A DNA stretch of 64,000 bases from Bacteroidota bacterium (GTDB lineage: Bacteria; Bacteroidota; Ignavibacteria; Kapaibacteriales; UBA2268), in contig SCSM01000007.1 of the NCBI GenBank assembly GCA_004322215.1, forward strand, positions 62,001 through 126,000. The letters run 5' to 3'. A program made the position numbers and the translations under genes. Positions 43,941-58,870 of this stretch are shown here, in pieces. The stretch's first letter is position 1, and each line of letters begins with the position of its first letter. Below the pieces are notes generated by a model. The model did no database searches, was not told the DNA's origin, and saw only the letters and a program-made list of their open reading frames with translations.

Positions 43941-45147
43941 ATGGCAAATATTGGCTTTTACCTCAATAAACCTTCGAGTAATAATTGAACAGTCATATTT
44001 TTAAGAATCATTATTGATGGAAAAAGAACAAAAATTTCAACCGGAGAAAAGATACATCCTAAGTTTTGGAATATTGAAAAACAAGAAGCCCCATAGGAAT
44101 ACAACCGGTTCATCTGAACTCAATGACCTTTTTAAATCAATTAAATCATCTGTCGAGGCAACTATTTGAGATGCAAAAGCAAGAAATATTGAAATAACAT
44201 CTGATTACTTGAAGGAAAATTTTGATAAGAAATTTAAGAAAGGAAAACTTGAAAAAGTTTCTTTTTTTGAACAATTTGAAAATTTCATTGAATCCAGTAA
44301 GACAACTAAAAAATCTAATGTTATCAAAGCGTATCGGACAACTTTAAATAAATTGAAAGAGTTTGAATCGTTATATAAAAATAAAATTACTTTCACAAGT
44401 ATTGATATTTCATTCTACGATAAGTTCTTAAGTTACTTAATAAATAAAAATCAATATTTAAATAATACAGCCGGAAATTACATAAAGCATATTAAAACTT
44501 TTATGAATTTCTGTTATCAACGAAAAATTCATGATAATAATGAATATAAAAATTTTAAAGTATTTAAAGAAGAGAGCCAATCAATATATTTAACCGATGC
44601 CGAATTAAAGAAAATCGAAAATTTAGACCTATCATTTGGTGATAGACTAAATAATATCAAAAATGTCTTTCTATTACAATGTTATACCGGGCTTAGATAT
44701 TCTGATTTAATTAAATTGACTCAGGAAGATATTAAAAACGATTTTATTATTATCAGAACTGTTAAAACCAAAGATGAAATCAATATACCGATAAGCCCCA
44801 AAGCAAGAAAATTACTTGACAATTTAGATGGGTTGAACTTTAAATTTGTATCAAATCAAAAGATGAACAGTTACCTTACAGAAATTGGTATCAGAGCCGG
44901 AATTGATGAACCATTTAAAAACATTCTTTATAGAGGGAGTGAAAGAATCGAAAAGATTTTACCCAAGTATGAAATGCTTTCAACACATACTGCACGCAGA
45001 ACCTTCATAACATTATCTCTTGAGAAAGGGATGAGACCTGAAGTTGTAATGAAAATAACCGGACATAAAGATTATAAATCATTTAAAAGGTATGTAAAAC
45101 TTACGGATAATGTTGCAAAAGAGGAAGTAACAAGAGCTTGGATATAA
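43941..45147 (+). pseudogene. Tyrosine integrase, broken by two stops and a frameshift
   Basis: Read through its lesions, the gene encodes ~400 residues. An arm-binding N-terminus (ANIGFYLNKPSSNN, VIFLRIIIDGKRTKISTGE, HPKFWNIEKQEA) is followed by a core-binding domain and a catalytic domain with Arg (CYTGLRYSDL), His-x2-Arg (THTARRTF), His (ITGHKDY) and Tyr (FKRYVKL) all present. Lesions are a TGA at 43986-43988, a one-base frame change in the C run at 44089-44092, and a TGA at 44167-44169. From 44209 on, the frame is open. Both stops could come from CGA by a single C-to-T change. It lies beside tRNA-Arg, so it is probably the remains of an integrated element. Confidence 0.88.
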
Positions 45148-45158
45148 GATTCCAATGG

Positions 45159-45184
45159 TAGTGTAAACTAAACTCTGTCCTTTA
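45159..45184. repeat. Probable IS256-family terminal inverted repeat
   Basis: TAGTGTAAACTAAACTCTGTCC resembles the ends of IS256-family elements and lies downstream of the transposase remnant, 12 bp after the integrase stop. The other end of the element was not found. Confidence 0.45.
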
Positions 45185-45337
45185 TGAATATTATTAAAAA
45201 AATATATCCGATTAATAAAATTAATAAAATAAACCTTTAAAAGAAAATCCGATTATAATTTAATGTGTCGGATAATGAGTTCGCAAAACGAATGATAAAA
45301 GCACTTTAAACTATAATCAAAATACCCGTGACTATTC

Positions 45338-45750
45338 TTATACCTCTAAGTTGTATTTAAATCTGTCTCCAAATCTGATTGCCAACTGTTGAGCAGTAGT
45401 ACCCCAATTCTGCATTGGTTGTGTCCACTTATTCATAACTTCCATTGATGTAGGCCAGACTAATTTGACTAATGCCATATCACTGGTGAATGGTCCCTTT
45501 GTCTTGCTCCCCTTGAGGATCTTCCTGTGGAATCCTTCTACCGTATTTGTTGTGTAGATAAGCCTGCGAATCTCGGCTGTATAAGCAAAATAGGTCGTTA
45601 AATTATCCCAGTTATTCCTCCAGGATTTAATAACAATTGGTATTTCTTAACCCATTTTTCTTCTAAGTTATTCATCTCTTCTTCGGCTATTGATTTAGTA
45701 TCCGCCTTATAGACAAGCTTCAGGCCAGCCATGAATGCCTTATGGTCTTT
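45338..45750 (-). pseudogene. IS256-family transposase, C-terminal remnant with a frameshift
   Basis: On the minus strand the sequence encodes KDHKAFMAGLKLVYKADTK ... LEEKWVKKYQLLL, then after a one-base loss near 45625 continues as KSWRNNWDNLTTYFAYTAEI, RRLIYTTNTVEGFHRKI and SKTKGPFTSDMALVKLVW, ending at a TAA (45338-45340). This is the C-terminal part of an IS256 (mutator-type) transposase, including the region with the last catalytic Glu (TVEGFHR). The N-terminal half is missing, replaced in frame by a type I restriction fragment. Confidence 0.85.
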
Positions 45751-46062
45751 GCTTGTGGATTCATAGATAAAAGGAAGTGGTTTACTATTTACAAACCATT
45801 TTATTCTACCTGAAGCATAACGGATAGCTTGTTCATGCACAGCAGTTAGTAGTGTGCTTTCTTTTTTTGCTTCGATTACCCCGACAGGGCTGTCCTCAAT
45901 AAAGAGCATATAATCAGCTGCCCCGGAGTCAGTAGGATACTCACGGACAGCAATACCAATAGAAGCATTCAAATTGATATGCTTATAAACTTGAATCGCC
46001 CAGCCGATCTGTATCAGTTGAGCATCAATATTCTGTCTGGCATATTCTTCCGGGAGTATCAT
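45751..46062 (-). pseudogene. HsdR (type I restriction endonuclease) N-terminal fragment
   Basis: The first ~104 codons encode the HsdR nuclease domain start: PEEYARQNIDAQLIQIGWAI, NASIGIAVREYPTDSG, AADYMLFIEDSPVGVIEAKKE and SGRIKWFVNSKPLPFIYEST. The PD-(D/E)xK residues (Asp in AADYM, Glu-x-Lys in IEAKKE) are intact. After FIYESTS the frame runs straight into transposase sequence, so the helicase and C-terminal domains are gone. No hsdM or hsdS lies nearby. The fragment cannot encode a working restriction subunit. Confidence 0.83.
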
Positions 46063-49938: not shown

Positions 49939-51026
49939 TTAATAAGTCCGCATTACCCGAAAACCGCCGCTGCCGAGCTGGGTGCTCGGGCGCGCGTAGC
50001 CGCGCCAAGCTGAACGACAATCGCTTGCATGATAGCCAAAGTGACTACCACGCACAACACTGTTATACCTTTTTGTCTCACACTTAGGGTCTGTTACCGC
50101 TGTCTCGGTATAGTAAGCTAAATTATACGAATCCCAGCACCACTCCCATACATTACCGCTCATATCAAATAGACCAAAATTATTCGGCTCTTTTTGACCT
50201 ACCTCATGTGTGCTGCCTTCTGCATTACCACAATACCACCCTATCCTGTCCAAATTCGCATCTATTGGTTTACAATATTCATTAGTTAGAATTCCACTGT
50301 AAAAGTCCGTTGTTGTTCCCGCCTTTCCCATTCAGCTTCTGTCGGGAGCCGCCAGCCGTTTGCATTCCAATTGCAGGTAACATCTGTTCCGATTATTGTA
50401 TAGCATTTCGTAAGTCCATCCTTTTCCGATAATTTGTTGCAAAATTCAACCGCTTCATACCAGTTTATCCTTTCAACAGGAAGATTGTCCCCTTTGAATT
50501 TGCTGGGTTCTGTTCCCATTATTTTTTTCCATTGGTTCTGTGTTATTTCATATTTTCCCATATAAAATGATTTAGTCAATGTAACAGTATGTTCCGGTAT
50601 TTCAGTATATTCAACATAATATAACCCCATGTTGCCCATTTGAAATGAACCTGCAGGGATAAGAACTGATTCGATTAGGGATATGACAGAAAAATCAACA
50701 TCATTACTTTTCTTCTCATTCACCATAACCGCAACTTTTCCGCTTATGGCTCCTTCAGGCACTTTTACTTTGATTTCCGTTTCGCTCCAGCTTGAGTATT
50801 CGCTTGCTTGTATATTGTTAAAGGATACAAAGCTTGTGTCTTGTGTGGAACCGAAGCCGAAACCGGAAATTGTAATAATATCTCCGATATTAGCAGAGTC
50901 AGTATTTATACTTATGATTTTCAATGTTGAATCAGGGAGATTATCTTTATTTCCCGAACCTCCTGCATGTAAATATAAAGGAAGAATGGTTAAGATGATT
51001 ATTAAATTCAATAATTGCTTTTTCAT
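49939..51026 (-). pseudogene. IPT/TIG plus SUMF1 (formylglycine-generating-like) protein, split by a frameshift
   Basis: The first frame (51026 to 50286) has a signal peptide, a TIG domain (SANIGDIITISGFGFGSTQDTSFVSF) and the start of a SUMF1 domain (VLIPAGSFQMGN, YEITQNQWKKIMG, WRLPTEAEWE). The second frame (to 49939) carries on with AGTTTDFYSG, NNFGLFDMSGNVWEWCWD, VVRGSHFGYHASDCRSAWRG and GGFRVMRTY. Between EAEWE and AGTTT about three residues are missing, and the frame shifts near 50320-50330, consistent with a ~10-bp deletion. The first of the two catalytic FGE cysteines is absent, so it is likely a binding or non-FGE SUMF1 protein. Confidence 0.82.
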
Positions 51027-51073: not shown

Positions 51074-54000
51074 TTAATAGTAAAAAATAGGAAAATCCTG
51101 CTCATAGTTTTCCTGCCGCACATTAGGCGTTTGTTTGAATACCTCACGATATTTATCAAATTCTTTAATTATAAATTTTCGTAATTCAGATACTGTTACC
51201 TTGCTGTCCTTGTCATAATCGGCAAAAAGTGAATTAGTAGTTATGTCCTTTGAAAATCCTTTCAATACAGCAAAAGTGAACAGTCCGTTTTGCTTTTCTG
51301 CAGTTTCTTTTGCTGTCTCGACTCCTTTAGATGCTGAAATTATTATCGTTCCTGAGCCTCTGTTCAAATTAATGAATAATTCATTCAGATAGTCTGCTGT
51401 AATGCTTGTTCCAAGCTTCTTTTTTGTCTTTTTCGGACATATTGCCTTTACATCACCTCTGTAGTAAATATCTTTTATATTATCCTTCGGCGCTGGTTTA
51501 TTCTCATCCATTGCTAAAATATCTTCTTTATCAACTTCTCCCGAATGACAGGCATCGAGAAATAATAGCTTCTGTCGGGCTGGTATGGAATCCAAAATAT
51601 TCTCAAGCTCATCGAATGCTAATCCATTTTGTTCAGGCTCACAAGGGTTTATATTATATGTTGATAAATAATAGTCAAGACTATCATTTAAAAGCCCATG
51701 CCCGGAAAATGAAATTAAGACAACATCATCGGGTTTGGTTTTTAGTAGTGTGTCTTTGAGTTTTAAAATATTTTCTCTTGTGGCATTCTGATTTAGCATT
51801 GGTATAATATGTATTTGATTGTAAAATTTAGCTTGGTTTTTAAATATACTGCATAAATCGTTTGCATCTTTATGGGCAAATTTCAAATCAATGGATTTAA
51901 AGTTAGTCATTGAATATTCATAATTTGAAATTCCAATAGCTATTACATATAAATCTGGCTTTTTCTCTTTGACTTTATATTCAATGTATTTAGTATCGAA
52001 GAGGCTTTCGACACCTATTTCGTTCAGAACAGATACCTGGATTTTATTTGAGCCTTGAGATAATGTCAATTCTACATCTTTTTGTATTTGCTTAACTTTT
52101 TGGTTTCTTACATCGAGTCCGTTTCTCCCATAAATCGGAACATTATTCACATAAACATTGACTCTGTCGAGTGTGTAGTTTTCATCTGTAGCTTTTATTT
52201 TGAGAGTTACCTTTTTTTTGTCATATAGATATTCGATGCCGTCTTTATTTGTAATTTCGGCAGTTGGCAGGTTATAATCTTCTTTCAGCCATTCTTCTTT
52301 GAATTTCATTTTCCTTAATCTTTTCAAGTAAGCATCATGGTAAGCATCAATTAGCTCTTGCGAAGCATAACCTAATCTTGACAGCACAATATCAGGTCTG
52401 TTCAATCTCAAATCGAACTGCTCGAATGGATATGCGTGCATCCCGATACGGAAAGCTACACCTTTGTAACCGCCTTTTGAGCAAGTGTAGTAGTTGTCTG
52501 GGGTTGTGATTATATAGTCAGTTGAATCAATTGAAAATAATGATGTGATTTCTTTATTTAATTTATCAAAATATATTAATCGATTTTTTGTTGAGTAATC
52601 ATATTTTCTTGGTTTAAATAATCTATCATTATTTTCAATAATTATATTATCATTTTCAAACCGATAATAATAACCTAAAATTCGACCCCATTGATTCATT
52701 TTATAATAATAACTAAAATTTTCCAAATTATTATTGAAATCTAGAGCCCACTCTCTAATAAAATCATCATATTCTCTTAATTTTAACTCCAAGTATTCTT
52801 TAGCTAAATAGTAATCACCATCTTCTTCCCATGCAAAAATGCTAATGCATTCATGGGTCTTAAGATTCAATAAGTAAATATAGCCATTTCTTTCCTCATG
52901 AGGAATTGGTTTTCCATAATTGAAATCTTTCCCGAAAGTAATAAGATAATTTCTATCAGGACTCAGTTTACTGAATAAATAAAACTCTGAATAATGTTCA
53001 CAAAAACCATTTGTCAATGAAAAACATTTGTCTTCTTTTAAATCCCAATGTACTATTTCCTTTGTTCCTATTCCAATTATTGAGGAATTTTCACCAATGA
53101 ATTCAATAGATATATCTGCTTTAATCTTTTTATTTTTTAATTCTGCTCTATTTTTCAAATCCCAAAGACATAATATTGTATCTGATGAACTGCATGCTAA
53201 AAAGCGACCATTATTACTTAATGAAATAGTCAAAATTTCACTTTTAAGCCCTTTTATTTGTAGACGTTCATTAAACTTATCAATATCATATAATTTTATT
53301 GTTCCGTTTCCCATCCCAATAATTAGAGTATTATTTTTTGGACTATAATAAAATGATGAAATCGGGGTTGTATCATTGTAAAGTTTTTTAATTCTAATAT
53401 CATTTACAATGTTCCAAATTCTTATACTATTATCGTTATTAAAACAAGCTATAGAATGTCCGTCTTCTTTTACACTTATATCCACGATTTTATTAATAAA
53501 TCCTTTAAGCTTTTGCACAATATTTTCAGTTGAATAATTCCAGATAATTATGTCAGGATCCAAATAACTTGCAGTTGCTACATTTGATTCGAAGGGAGAG
53601 AATGAGATTGATGATATAATTCTTTTATTTCCTCTAACCACCCCGATTACTTTACCAGTGGTTATTTCTTTAATACATAATATGTTTCTTTCTTTAACAT
53701 AACCGATATATTTTGAATCATAACTAAATGAAAACGATGATATATCTTCAACATTTAGTAATGATTTAGTTATTGAGGGTTTTGTAATAGCTAGATATCT
53801 TTCTGGAAATTTAAAAGCAGAATCGAATGTTGGAAATGGTGCTAAAATTAAATTATCTATATCCCAAATTTTTAAAGAACCCGAATGATTATGAGCTACA
53901 TATTTACCGTTTGGACTAAAAACTATATAGGATTCTGCATCTTCGGGTTGTAAATTTATTTCATAACATTTCTTAGTTAAAAAATCTTCCCATACCAAAA

Positions 54001-54577
54001 TTGAACCATATTTACTTCCAAATAAGATCTTATTACTATTTGGAACAAATGTTATAGAGTTCAATACTAAAAAATTACTATCTAATGAATTTATTAAAGT
54101 GCCACTTTTTATATCCCATAGTTTTATTATTGATTTTTCAAGATAACTACCTATTTCACAATTAACACTTGCAAGATACATTCCGTCCGGGCTAAGTTTT
54201 AAATTTAATTCTCCTTCTTCTTTTATTAAAATAGTTCTTATTTCTTTGCCTTTTAATATATCCCATATTTTGATTTCATTGTAAGAACTACTTGCTAGTA
54301 AATTTCCATCAGGACTAATTTCCAAAGAATGAATCTTCCCTTCATGCCCTTTAATCTCAAATAGTTCTTTATTTTGTGAAATATCCCATAAAATGATTAA
54401 TCCGTCAATGTCACCACTTGCTAAATATCTTCCATTAGGACTATAGCATATTTTTGATATAAGGGCTGTATGTCCCGTCTGTACCACCAACTCCGGCTTC
54501 ACTATCTTCTTCTCTTCTGCTTGCAGGTTGAAGTATAATAAGAATACAATTGACGAGATATAAAGAAATTTTTTCAT
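51074..54577 (-). CDS. Exported WD40-repeat protein with C-terminal caspase (peptidase C14) domain
   Basis: The 1167-residue protein has a signal peptide (1-20). Residues ~25-600 are WD40 repeats (for example TGHTALISKICYSPNGRYLASGDIDGLIILWDI and KGHEGKIHSLEISPDGNLLASSSYNEIKIWDI). A beta linker follows (~760-880). The caspase-fold domain (~885-1160) starts LYVIAIGISNYEY and has the catalytic dyad His960 (SFSGHG) and Cys1010 (LDACHSG). The family (metacaspase/orthocaspase) cleaves after basic residues or Asp. The signal peptide places it outside the cytoplasm, which is unlike intracellular metacaspases. A GLFTFAVLKGF and EF-hand-like DYDKDSKVTVSEL segment suggests calcium control. Confidence 0.9.
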   Translation of the reverse strand: MKKFLYISSIVFLLYFNLQAEEKKIVKPELVVQTGHTALISKICYSPNGRYLASGDIDGLIILWDISQNKELFEIKGHEGKIHSLEISPDGNLLASSSYNEIKIWDILKGKEIRTILIKEEGELNLKLSPDGMYLASVNCEIGSYLEKSIIKLWDIKSGTLINSLDSNFLVLNSITFVPNSNKILFGSKYGSILVWEDFLTKKCYEINLQPEDAESYIVFSPNGKYVAHNHSGSLKIWDIDNLILAPFPTFDSAFKFPERYLAITKPSITKSLLNVEDISSFSFSYDSKYIGYVKERNILCIKEITTGKVIGVVRGNKRIISSISFSPFESNVATASYLDPDIIIWNYSTENIVQKLKGFINKIVDISVKEDGHSIACFNNDNSIRIWNIVNDIRIKKLYNDTTPISSFYYSPKNNTLIIGMGNGTIKLYDIDKFNERLQIKGLKSEILTISLSNNGRFLACSSSDTILCLWDLKNRAELKNKKIKADISIEFIGENSSIIGIGTKEIVHWDLKEDKCFSLTNGFCEHYSEFYLFSKLSPDRNYLITFGKDFNYGKPIPHEERNGYIYLLNLKTHECISIFAWEEDGDYYLAKEYLELKLREYDDFIREWALDFNNNLENFSYYYKMNQWGRILGYYYRFENDNIIIENNDRLFKPRKYDYSTKNRLIYFDKLNKEITSLFSIDSTDYIITTPDNYYTCSKGGYKGVAFRIGMHAYPFEQFDLRLNRPDIVLSRLGYASQELIDAYHDAYLKRLRKMKFKEEWLKEDYNLPTAEITNKDGIEYLYDKKKVTLKIKATDENYTLDRVNVYVNNVPIYGRNGLDVRNQKVKQIQKDVELTLSQGSNKIQVSVLNEIGVESLFDTKYIEYKVKEKKPDLYVIAIGISNYEYSMTNFKSIDLKFAHKDANDLCSIFKNQAKFYNQIHIIPMLNQNATRENILKLKDTLLKTKPDDVVLISFSGHGLLNDSLDYYLSTYNINPCEPEQNGLAFDELENILDSIPARQKLLFLDACHSGEVDKEDILAMDENKPAPKDNIKDIYYRGDVKAICPKKTKKKLGTSITADYLNELFINLNRGSGTIIISASKGVETAKETAEKQNGLFTFAVLKGFSKDITTNSLFADYDKDSKVTVSELRKFIIKEFDKYREVFKQTPNVRQENYEQDFPIFYY

Positions 54578-54603: not shown

Positions 54604-57600
54604 CTATTTCATCACAATAAATTTTACTGTTTCAATCTTATCTCCTGCTTTTAGTGTACAGAAATACACACCCGATGACAAACCACTTGCATCAAAAGTT
54701 ATCCTATTTGTACCTTGCTCAATGAAAACATTATCAATTAGATTTAATATTTTATTACCAAGTAAGTTATAAACATTTATTGAAACGATACTTGATTCTT
54801 TTAGACTATATTGAATAAATGCTTTATCATCAGTGGGATTTGGTGATATAATAAAACTAAATATGCTATTGAAGTTGTTAATCACATCAGTTGTTTCTAA
54901 AACCTTGATTTCTTTAGCGTATTTTCTACTTGAATAGAACCCACTACGTGAAGCATTAAAATAAAAATGATAATTTCCTGGTACCGCATTTTTTGGTATA
55001 TAAGATTTGAAAATTGTTTCACCACTTTCATTAGTTTGCAAATTGTCTGTAATATCATTTAAGCTATCAATAACAAAAATTTTTGCATCTTTAACCAAAT
55101 TTCCTTTGAAATCCAAAACATATAAATTAAAAACTATTGAGTCGCCCTGTTGAAAAATGTTTGTATTTGATTTTATCTTTAAGAATAAAGGAATTTTGTC
55201 ATGATACATTGTTCTAAAAATGCACTCTTGACCAACATACCAACCATCAAGTTCATTTAAAAAGAAAGTTGAATTTACACCATCACCAGTTAATCCATAA
55301 TTTTTCCAATTTTTTCCACCATCTGTGGTATAACAATAAAATTGGTTATAACTATCAAATATCCAACCTTTAAGACTAGATATAAAACTACCATTCCATG
55401 AACGAATACTTTCTCCTTCTTCATCGAATTGTTCTATCCAATTCTTTCCATCATTTGAGGTATAATATACCCCTTCTCCTGTTAACCACCCTATATTATT
55501 ATCTACAAAAAAAACGTTACCAAAATGTTTATCTAAATTTGTTTTTATTTCGTTCCAGCTTGAGCCTCCATCAGTTGTTTTATATAATGTGTCTCTATAA
55601 TTGAGCCAAGGTTTTTCAACATTTTGGCTTCCAGCAACTATTATCCATCCTTGATTACTGTCTCGAAAATAACCGGTTGTTATTTTTTTATTTAATATAT
55701 TATTCCATTTATTTCCAAAATCTGTTGATTTTAAAACACCTCTTTCACCGAATATATATCCAACATTATCGTTAGTAAAAATAATTTTATTATAGTCAAA
55801 TCCCCATTCTCCTTTTTTAATAATATCCCAGGTTTCACCTGTATCAGTTGATTTAGCAATTTTTTCTTCAAAACCAACTCCATAAATTATTGAATCATTT
55901 AAAAACGATAGAGAATTAAAACTCATATAATCATTAATTGAGATAATATCATTCCATGAATTCCCACTATTTATTGTCTTTAAAATTTTATTTGAACCAA
56001 CAATAATACCTGTTGAATCATTTATAAAAGAAATATCAGAAAAATTTTCCTGGTATTTATTTGGAAAATATTGAGAAATCCAAACATGTTGTTTGTTTTC
56101 TAAATTTCCTCCCCCATTTTCAGTTTTTAATATAGCATTATCATTAGCGATAATCCAACCCTCGTTCTCATTAAGAAAAAATATTTTCTTTAGAGAATAA
56201 ACATAATCATTTATTTTCTGATTATACCATGATAAACCACCATCTGTTGTTTTATATATAGATCTACCTCCAATAATCCAACCGATTGTATCGTTTACAA
56301 AAAATATATTAGAAAAACCACGACGAGTGTTATCTTGAGAGGACCAAGGAATAAAACTGGAATTCCAAGATTCACCTTCATCCAAAGTCTTTGATATATA
56401 ATAACCGCACATCCATCCTGTATTGTCTTTAAAAATAATGTCAGTAACATATCCATTATTTGGTAAATTCATTTGTTGCCATGTTAAACCACCATCTGTT
56501 GTTTTCAGGACTAAATATAATATTGATGCAGAAGAACCATACCAAATTTGTTTTTCCAAAGAAATATAACCATTTAACGGATTATAAAAGAATACTTTTT
56601 TACAATTATTAACAATATTGTTGCTATCATTAAATATATTAACATTAAACCATGACTCACCACTATTACTTGTTTTAATAACAACACCAGAGTCTCCTAC
56701 TGCCCAACCAATATCATTATTAATAAAATAAATTGATTTTAAAGATTCTTTAAAATTATTTTCTAATAAAGACCAGGAATCTCCTGAATCAGTAGATTTT
56801 AAAATTAATCCTTTAACACCTATAAAATCACCTAATTGAAATTCAACAAAACTAAAACCTGCAACATAACCTACTTGATCGTTAACAAAATAAATTGATT
56901 TTAAAGATAAATATGCTCCTTCATTTTTTTTAACCCAAGAAATACCCTTATCAGTTGTCTTAATTATTATCCCAGAGCTACCGACAATAAATCCTGTATT
57001 ATTGTTAGAAAAAAATATAGATTTTAAAGATTTTGAAGTGTCAATTATTATTTTATTCCAGTTCTTACCGGCATCCGATGTATTAAAACAGTTCCCCTTG
57101 TATGTAACTGCAAATCCATCATTTGTGTTTAAAAAATAAATAGATTCAATACTTTCACCTAAATCTTTTTTATCAACCCAGGATGACCCTCCATCAGATG
57201 TATAAAATAATTGAGAGTTTTTTGTAATCCATCCTATCTTATCAGTAATGAAGAAAATATTATCAATCCATTTATCGCCTTCTATATTTAACTTAATCCA
57301 ATCTTTACCTCCATTTGTGGTCCTCCATATTGCCGACTTTTGATTATCTATATCAATACTTATATCTCCCCAAATATCTTCACTAATTGAAATTCTTGAT
57401 GCTGATATACCTGAAGCCCATCCATTCAGTCTATTAATAAAATGAACATCTTTAATCCATCCTACACCCAAAGATATTTTAGCAAAATTTTGACCTCCGT
57501 CGGCTGTTATATAAATATCTTCCAATCCAACTATTATTCCTTCATCATTATTAAAGAAATAAACATCTTCTAAAAAGACATGCCTTTCATTTTCGACCAA

Positions 57601-58050
57601 TTGTTCCCAATTCATACCACCATTGGTTGTCTTTAATATTGTTTTATTATCCCCAACAATCCAACCTCTATTCTTATCTATAAAAAAAACTGATTTCAAC
57701 TCACTTGTAACATTTGTATTTTGTCTTTTCCATGCTTCACCTCCAGATTCTGAATAAAATACTGCACCATCGTCGCCGACTGCCCAAGCAAAATTGTCTT
57801 TTACATAAACGCAGTTTAAATTTTCAGATAGGTTATCTTTAACAATATTCCATATTTTACCATCATCATTTGTTTTGATTATCCTTCCATCATCAGTTGT
57901 AATAATCATTTTATTTTTATCAAAAATGTGAAAATCTGTAAAACGAGAAGATTCGAATCCTTCTACACTTTTTAAATTCCATCCGCTTTGAGCAGAAGCA
58001 GTAGTAAATAAAACACAAATTAAGTTGAAAAATAAAATATAATATTTCAT
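54604..58050 (-). CDS. Giant secreted YCF48-repeat protein with T9SS type A tail
   Basis: The 1148-residue protein has a signal peptide (1-20). Some twenty YCF48/BNR-like blades follow, each with a (S/F)..(F)....GW(I/A)VG and (T/S)TDGG..W core (for example FIDKNRGWIVGDNKTILKTTNGGMNWEQL). Residues ~1000-1065 form a beta domain (GDSIVFNLYVLDFKGNLVKDAKIFVID), and the end (ISPNPTDDKAFIQYSL ... IETVKFIVMK) is a T9SS sorting tail. YCF48 propellers bind proteins or pigments, and BNR-type repeats occur in surface proteins. The role is unknown; size and secretion suggest a surface binder or sensor. Confidence 0.85.
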   Translation of the reverse strand: MKYYILFFNLICVLFTTASAQSGWNLKSVEGFESSRFTDFHIFDKNKMIITTDDGRIIKTNDDGKIWNIVKDNLSENLNCVYVKDNFAWAVGDDGAVFYSESGGEAWKRQNTNVTSELKSVFFIDKNRGWIVGDNKTILKTTNGGMNWEQLVENERHVFLEDVYFFNNDEGIIVGLEDIYITADGGQNFAKISLGVGWIKDVHFINRLNGWASGISASRISISEDIWGDISIDIDNQKSAIWRTTNGGKDWIKLNIEGDKWIDNIFFITDKIGWITKNSQLFYTSDGGSSWVDKKDLGESIESIYFLNTNDGFAVTYKGNCFNTSDAGKNWNKIIIDTSKSLKSIFFSNNNTGFIVGSSGIIIKTTDKGISWVKKNEGAYLSLKSIYFVNDQVGYVAGFSFVEFQLGDFIGVKGLILKSTDSGDSWSLLENNFKESLKSIYFINNDIGWAVGDSGVVIKTSNSGESWFNVNIFNDSNNIVNNCKKVFFYNPLNGYISLEKQIWYGSSASILYLVLKTTDGGLTWQQMNLPNNGYVTDIIFKDNTGWMCGYYISKTLDEGESWNSSFIPWSSQDNTRRGFSNIFFVNDTIGWIIGGRSIYKTTDGGLSWYNQKINDYVYSLKKIFFLNENEGWIIANDNAILKTENGGGNLENKQHVWISQYFPNKYQENFSDISFINDSTGIIVGSNKILKTINSGNSWNDIISINDYMSFNSLSFLNDSIIYGVGFEEKIAKSTDTGETWDIIKKGEWGFDYNKIIFTNDNVGYIFGERGVLKSTDFGNKWNNILNKKITTGYFRDSNQGWIIVAGSQNVEKPWLNYRDTLYKTTDGGSSWNEIKTNLDKHFGNVFFVDNNIGWLTGEGVYYTSNDGKNWIEQFDEEGESIRSWNGSFISSLKGWIFDSYNQFYCYTTDGGKNWKNYGLTGDGVNSTFFLNELDGWYVGQECIFRTMYHDKIPLFLKIKSNTNIFQQGDSIVFNLYVLDFKGNLVKDAKIFVIDSLNDITDNLQTNESGETIFKSYIPKNAVPGNYHFYFNASRSGFYSSRKYAKEIKVLETTDVINNFNSIFSFIISPNPTDDKAFIQYSLKESSIVSINVYNLLGNKILNLIDNVFIEQGTNRITFDASGLSSGVYFCTLKAGDKIETVKFIVMK

Positions 58051-58084: not shown

Positions 58085-58870
58085 TTAATATTCTGTCGTA
58101 ATAATTAATTTGGGAATTATATTTTCTTTTACGCTCCATAGCTTCATTACCTCATCATTGCTGATGTTTGACCAATCATGTTTTTTAATCGTCTCTTTGG
58201 ATATATTGACCTTAAATAAAGTTTTCGCCTCGTCTCTTATCTTTTGTCTTGTTACCGGGTCAATTAATCTCACACCATGCCTCATTTCAACAGATAAAAT
58301 ACATTCTTTCGGAAAAGTTGCTTTTGTAATAACTGCACTCAGTATCTTTGAACAGCGTGACTTGACAAGCTCTTCTAATTTTTCCAGAGTATTATAATCT
58401 CCCCTTACTATTGGGTCAGGGTCTTCAGATGAATGTTCCTCGAGGATATGCTCAAATATTACAAATTCGGATTTATTTGTATAAAGGTTAACCAAATCAA
58501 CATCTAATTTAGCGATTGGAAGAGTATTGGAAACTGCATCCTGTACAGATTTTGAATAAAGATATTGCAATTTATTCAAGGCGGAATCTTTAAAGATAGT
58601 TACCGGATTCTTCACGATGAAAGCATCATAAGCGTCAATAGTATTGATAGATAGAGTTTCTTCCCATTCTTCTTTTGAATTAAGATATTGCAATCTTATT
58701 ATAGCGGAGTCTGCAAATAAAGTTCCCCGGTGATTTTCAATGAAAGCATTATAGGCGTCAATAGTGTTGATGGATTTTGCCTTTTCCCATTCGCTACTTA
58801 TGGTAGCACAGGATGATATAATCACCGATATATATAATAGGATAAACAATGCAGTAAAATATTTTTTCAT
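58085..58870 (-). CDS. Lipoprotein with a duplicated ~42-residue segment
   Basis: The 261-residue protein starts with a lipoprotein signal (ISSC, Cys about residue 21). Residues ~28-64 (EWEKAKSINTIDAYNAFIENHRGTLFADSA) and ~72-108 (EWEETLSINTIDAYDAFIVKNPVTIFKDSA) are close copies. These resemble helical repeats of TPR-like lipoproteins (ITAYNAFI motifs). The C-terminal ~150 residues are unassigned, with a KSRCSK and a MRHGVRL strand. An AGGAGG site precedes the ATG. Confidence 0.75.
   Translation of the reverse strand: MKKYFTALFILLYISVIISSCATISSEWEKAKSINTIDAYNAFIENHRGTLFADSAIIRLQYLNSKEEWEETLSINTIDAYDAFIVKNPVTIFKDSALNKLQYLYSKSVQDAVSNTLPIAKLDVDLVNLYTNKSEFVIFEHILEEHSSEDPDPIVRGDYNTLEKLEELVKSRCSKILSAVITKATFPKECILSVEMRHGVRLIDPVTRQKIRDEAKTLFKVNISKETIKKHDWSNISNDEVMKLWSVKENIIPKLIITTEY

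Follow-up and report, generated by a model that had tools for sequence, protein, structure and literature searches.

What does a caspase-type protease do behind a signal peptide and WD40 propellers, and is it controlled by calcium there? The question is raised by a gene in a 64,000-nucleotide stretch of contig SCSM01000007.1 (Bacteroidota; Ignavibacteria; Kapaibacteriales), here called the window. According to the original prediction, extracytoplasmic location and calcium control would set the encoded WD40-C14 protein apart from those already known.

Gene and domain order

The gene (51074-54577, minus strand, as are all its features given below) is complete. It forms one intact reading frame of 1167 aa with an ATG start and no internal stops. 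An in-frame stop directly 5´ of the ATG rules out a longer form, and an A-rich stretch 5´ of it fits a normal start. The product is an exported bacterial caspase relative fused to WD40 propellers, in the order signal peptide, WD40, RPD block, Ig-like domain, C14 domain and EF-type loop.

The WD40 beta-propeller region spans about residues 29-690 (52508..54493). It is recognized by Pfam WD40 and propeller models, with propeller repeats starting at residue 33, and in the full-length model (pLDDT 76.1) repeated beta strands continue to about residue 690, residues ~585-664 being poorly modelled and of low confidence. Then comes a conserved block, DYIITTPDNYY...YPFEQFDLRLNRPDIVLSRLGYAS, with a helix (about residues 686-759; 52301..52522), in which RPD at 727-729 is invariant in 77 sequences. 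The Ig-like domain of about residues 770-870 (51968..52270) is seen as beta strands in the model and as a weak Big_7 match (E 0.056).

Export signal and genomic neighbourhood

Residues 1-20 (MKKFLYISSIVFLLYFNLQA; 54518..54577) make up a Sec-type signal peptide, MKKFLYISSIVFLLYFNLQA|EE, with a predicted cut at A20|E21. N, H and C regions and a signal peptidase I site are present by a rule-based test and a conserved cleavage column, and residues 2-19 are one helix in the full-length model. Our signal peptide calls come from a simple self-written rule, not a trained predictor. By this rule, 65 of the 71 relatives with intact 5´ end (from 78 fetched from other genomes) carry a signal peptide. When the window protein is aligned with 44 full-length relatives, the column before the cut is A/S/G in 44/45 and the column after it is Q in 44/45; those 44 were picked for having a signal peptide under the same rule, so that 65/71 stands as the unselected figure. 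The cleavage column is immediately N-terminal to the first WD40 blade.

Secretion by T9SS was considered and rejected, since the C-terminal sorting domain is absent from the window protein. Its C-terminus is the C14 domain itself (...QDFPIFYY), and TIGR04183 reaches only 15.4 bits, within the WD40 region, against a cut-off of 23. The same genome encodes at least 150 proteins with such a sorting tail; as the window protein has none, we infer that the periplasm is its most likely place of residence.

The upstream gene, whose stop codon lies 26 nt before the ATG, encodes an exported Ycf48-like propeller with a T9SS sorting tail (54604..58050, minus strand), and the next one a lipoprotein with no Pfam match and a signal ending in SSC|A (58085..58870, minus strand). 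On the other side, an exported gene with TIG and FGE-sulfatase-fold domains is split in two ORFs (49939-51026, minus strand). Between the two, about 40 positions of the profile are lacking, which points either to a deletion with frameshift or to faulty assembly; elsewhere the genome has three intact FGE genes. A link to a diversity-generating retroelement through this FGE-fold neighbour was rejected, as the genome has no reverse transcriptase family match. Farther off, at 44209-46062, an integrase-like ORF on the plus strand and a short minus-strand ORF resembling, by eye, the N-terminal part of a type I restriction subunit were noticed.

Across relatives, exported genes make up 93/165 of same-chain neighbours vs 177/506 of other nearby genes (p 1.7e-6, with rule-based export calls and non-independent loci). 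A single conserved operon partner was sought and rejected: none is family-wide, and subgroups have their own partners, namely exported proteins of unknown fold (8 loci) or vWA-like, partly lipoprotein-like genes (at least 3 loci). At L066 2169-3134, L068 5404-6318 and L083 4528-5658, a vWA-type gene precedes the WD40-C14 gene, either directly or with one gene in between; one of the three is clearly a lipoprotein gene. Two order-level relatives (L032 3656-10230 and L034 4584-11791) have, directly after the WD40-C14 gene, a metacaspase-type C14 gene weakly similar to DUF4384, and next to it a small gene encoding hydrophobic, membrane-type stretches; they also appear to share three upstream genes of unknown function.

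The predicted extracytoplasmic location of the window protein is well supported by the conserved signal peptide, the exported neighbours and the exported paralogues described below. On this point, as on the signal peptide itself, the original prediction holds.

Caspase domain and active site

The C14 caspase domain covers residues 872-1167 (51077..51964). Peptidase_C14 (PF00656) matches at 879-1159 with E 4.6e-15 and 56.4 bits, compared with a curated cut-off of 21.4. The C-terminal 488-residue model (pLDDT 85.8, pTM 0.88) has a predicted caspase fold across the whole of residues 872-1167 (model residues 193-488), with Z 19-22 against caspases, MALT1 and metacaspases. Its structural neighbours are GSU0716 (3bij, Z 21.9), AtMC4 (6w8r, Z 21.2), MALT1 (Z ~20) and caspases (Z ~19). 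Orthocaspases are classed as prokaryotic C14 proteins without a recognized p10 domain; the model here has the full caspase fold including its C-terminal half.

The catalytic dyad is intact, as had been proposed: His960 in SGHG (codon 51698..51700) and Cys1010 in DACHSG (codon 51548..51550) are present in 77/77 relatives. Asp904 and Asp1008 are equally invariant in the 77 aligned relatives. In the alignment to AtMC4 they correspond to TbMCA2 Asp95 and Asp211, respectively, which accommodate basic residues (PMC6426788, PMC4357240), and because of this correspondence the window C14 domain is predicted to cleave after Arg or Lys. The dyad together with the Arg/Lys-type pocket supports a putative metacaspase-like protease function. 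The comparison with metacaspases that the original prediction called for thus gave a caspase fold and both pocket acids in register, but no metacaspase calcium site.

EF-type loop and calcium

An EF-hand-type loop, DYDKDSKVTVSE, lies at residues 1120-1131 (51185..51220), 110 residues C-terminal to Cys1010 (89-114 in relatives). It fits D-x-[DN]-x-[DN]-x-x-[IV]-x-x-x-E and is followed by a helix. In whole-protein shuffles the strict pattern appeared anywhere in 170/5000 and at its own place in 2/5000. The ligands are kept in most aligned relatives (D1120 in 72/77, D/N1122 in 71/77, D/N1124 in 75/77, E1131 in 74/77), and the loop as such is present in 74 of 78, the exceptions being four Chitinophagaceae. 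These four (L100, L113, L123 and L130) have lost the loop and provide a natural control for its role. In the C-terminal model a short strand at loop positions 7-9 passes at once into a helix, as in an EF-hand (model residues 450-463). The closest preceding helix stops 12 residues before the loop, which is a single copy with no second hand, and the EF-hand models of Pfam score it below cut-off (13.4 vs 25.4 bits).

The calcium site of metacaspases is formed in TbMCA2 by Asp173, 189, 190 and 220 (PMC4357240), and Yca1 has an aspartate-rich stretch, GQTEDLDGDEEDGMDD, after its catalytic His. In the window protein this stretch is replaced by GHGLLNDSLDYYLSTYN and, judged by sequence and not by structure superposition, the site is absent. 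Calcium binding, if any, would then take place elsewhere. Conservation of the ligands argues for binding by the EF-type loop, and regulation finds no support beyond that. In a calcium-rich compartment, a single loop is more likely structural than controlling. Of the proposed calcium control, the EF-hand-like segment is borne out by its conserved motif, whereas the control itself loses ground to a structural role and to the missing metacaspase site.

Family and distribution

When genome contigs were searched with the C-terminal half, 316 relatives came up, and we retained 78 loci. They are mostly from Bacteroidota, with a few Ignavibacteria, Chlorobiota and Delongbacteria and one Spirochaetota bin; since most come from metagenome bins, the origin of contigs is uncertain. 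A signal peptide and an EF-type loop are the norm in this family. The window genome alone encodes five C14 proteins. Four of them, the window protein and three exported paralogues, have both features, and the fifth has neither. One paralogue (L055 4273-5862, minus strand, on contig C5 of the same genome) combines signal peptide, C14 domain and EF-type loop with an end that resembles the C-terminus of an outer-membrane beta-barrel. The idea that the loop is tied to export holds within the window genome and was rejected for C14 proteins of the phylum, where the loop was found in a minority of sampled proteins, with and without a detected signal peptide. Export is also seen in other WD40-C14 proteins of the order, most of which lack the loop.

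The distribution is patchy: a similar C-terminal half occurs in 20/123 genomes of the order and in 1/4 of the genus. The best identity of the window protein, 47%, is to a Bacteroidetes bin. In the tree, two order-mates (G103 and G105) fall outside the clade of the window protein and Bacteroidota rows. Vertical inheritance within the order was set aside, because this placement hints at transfer; the tree does not fix the window protein's own position, and a horizontal origin of the window gene is possible.

With a signal peptide in 65/71 and a loop in 74/78 relatives, and both in four of the five C14 proteins of its genome, the window protein is not set apart by export and calcium as had been supposed. 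Since it follows the family pattern, the surprise is small for the gene itself; the family is the mildly interesting point. Our literature search found no functional study of an exported WD40-caspase family, and this large, exported, loop-bearing, Bacteroidota-centred family is apparently unstudied.

A possible role and its alternatives

We suggest that the window protein is a periplasmic, Arg/Lys-specific orthocaspase of a Bacteroidota-centred family, whose propellers dock partners and whose p10 side is stabilized by calcium; we would give this reading a probability of roughly 0.6. The Sec system would carry the protein over the inner membrane, the signal peptide would be removed at A20|E21 and, without a T9SS sorting tail, the protein would stay in the periplasm. 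There, a partner or substrate in the envelope might dock on the WD40 propellers, and the C14 domain would cut after Arg or Lys by means of His960/Cys1010 and the acidic pocket Asp904/Asp1008. One calcium ion in the EF-type loop would stabilize the p10-side helix; at envelope calcium levels it would probably be always bound and not act as a switch. Activity, specificity, calcium binding, retention and docking are all what we infer from computed features: the sequence, the conserved export signal, dyad, pocket and loop, and the predicted fold. Against our reading speak the single unpaired loop, which can bind weakly or not at all and scores below the Pfam cut-off, the four Chitinophagaceae relatives, which imply that the loop is not strictly needed, and the propellers, which are less usual outside the cytoplasm.

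The same loop might instead sense a change of calcium, for example upon lost outer-membrane integrity, and toggle the enzyme. It runs into the helix of the p10 side, close to where the caspase fold ends, its ligands are conserved in 71-75 of 77 sequences, and a need for calcium is known from metacaspases and several other peptidases of clan CD (PMC4357240). Such a switch nevertheless appears unlikely to us: the periplasm normally has enough calcium to fill the loop, four relatives dispense with it, and the site known from TbMCA2 (Asp173/189/190/220) and Yca1 (GQTEDLDGDEEDGMDD) is missing, with GHGLLNDSLDYYLSTYN in its place. The most far-reaching version, a large unstudied branch of caspase homologues outside the Bacteroidota cytoplasm, switched by a p10-side calcium loop unlike the metacaspase site and reporting envelope integrity, is doubtful and we would not count on it.

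One can also imagine an effector of conflict or cell death, whose propellers would detect a signal that is foreign or tells of stress and then unleash the protease on the cell's own envelope or on rivals. Known prokaryotic conflict proteins combine WD40 with C14, a PADLOC caspase model matches, the distribution is patchy, and at related loci a second C14 gene, of metacaspase type, adjoins. We still consider this a poor candidate, as the export signal takes the protein out of the cytoplasm, the place where phage sensing acts, there is no T9SS tail for delivery to rivals, and a partial Pfam check found no conserved defence genes among recurring neighbours. A reading as defence system was likewise rejected, because PADLOC gave a general caspase model only and the recurring neighbours lacked defence genes in the families checked. 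Pseudo-orthocaspases are known (PMC6426788), so that a non-proteolytic scaffold is conceivable, an exported WD40 adaptor whose caspase domain has decayed; dyad and pocket invariant in 77/77 make it highly improbable. Still harder to believe is that the protein is cytoplasmic and its N-terminus misread. Translation could begin at the GTG/TTG codons of V31 and L30, and the signal peptide was called by rule, but both signal and cleavage column are conserved across relatives, and the A-rich stretch before the ATG speaks for the start as annotated. The misplaced start that might have undone the original prediction is thus not borne out.

Most discussion of caspase homologues in bacteria treats them as death or defence proteins inside the cell. 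An exported group that is conserved and has an intact dyad, an Arg/Lys-type pocket and a calcium-type loop of its own suggests a separate role in the envelope. Cultured carriers (Winogradskyella thalassocola, Reichenbachiella agariperforans and Aureispira sp.) make the family testable.

Comparison with known systems

Among exported bacterial proteases, gingipain R (C25) and clostripain (C11) are clan CD enzymes with Arg/Lys specificity linked to calcium (PMC4357240); they belong to families different from C14 and were not retrieved in our searches. The best fold match, GSU0716 of Geobacter, aligns over 230 residues with 21% identity; it is a 285-aa chain without a propeller, uncharacterized in its PDB entry. 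Metacaspases (AtMC4, Yca1, TbMCA2) have the fold and the two acidic pocket positions in common with the window protein, which differs from them by lacking the aspartate-rich calcium site after the catalytic His and by an extra EF-type loop on the p10 side. In the MALT1 paracaspase, a caspase fold adjoins an Ig-like domain, as in the window protein. MALT1 has its Ig3 after the caspase domain, contains neither WD40 nor an EF loop, and is cytoplasmic.

The nearest counterparts are prokaryotic orthocaspases, and exported or EF-bearing ones had already been reported, which also weakens the claim that the window protein stands apart (PMC3501461, PMC6426788, PMC3355149). WD40 is the commonest partner domain of prokaryotic C14 (10.9%; Asplund-Samuelsson 2012, PMC3501461), and N-terminal helices, likely signal peptides, were described in other C14 proteins (PMC3501461). 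EF-hand and Big_7 Ig-like motifs are on record for archaeal orthocaspases (Klemencic 2019, PMC6426788), and a secreted C14 protein was named in Bradyrhizobium (Coggill and Bateman, PMC3355149). Orthocaspases and bacterial WD40-C14 proteins share with the window protein the C14 domain, the His-Cys dyad and the acidic pocket. What distinguishes the window family from them is that it unites all these features in one order and conserves them as a family.
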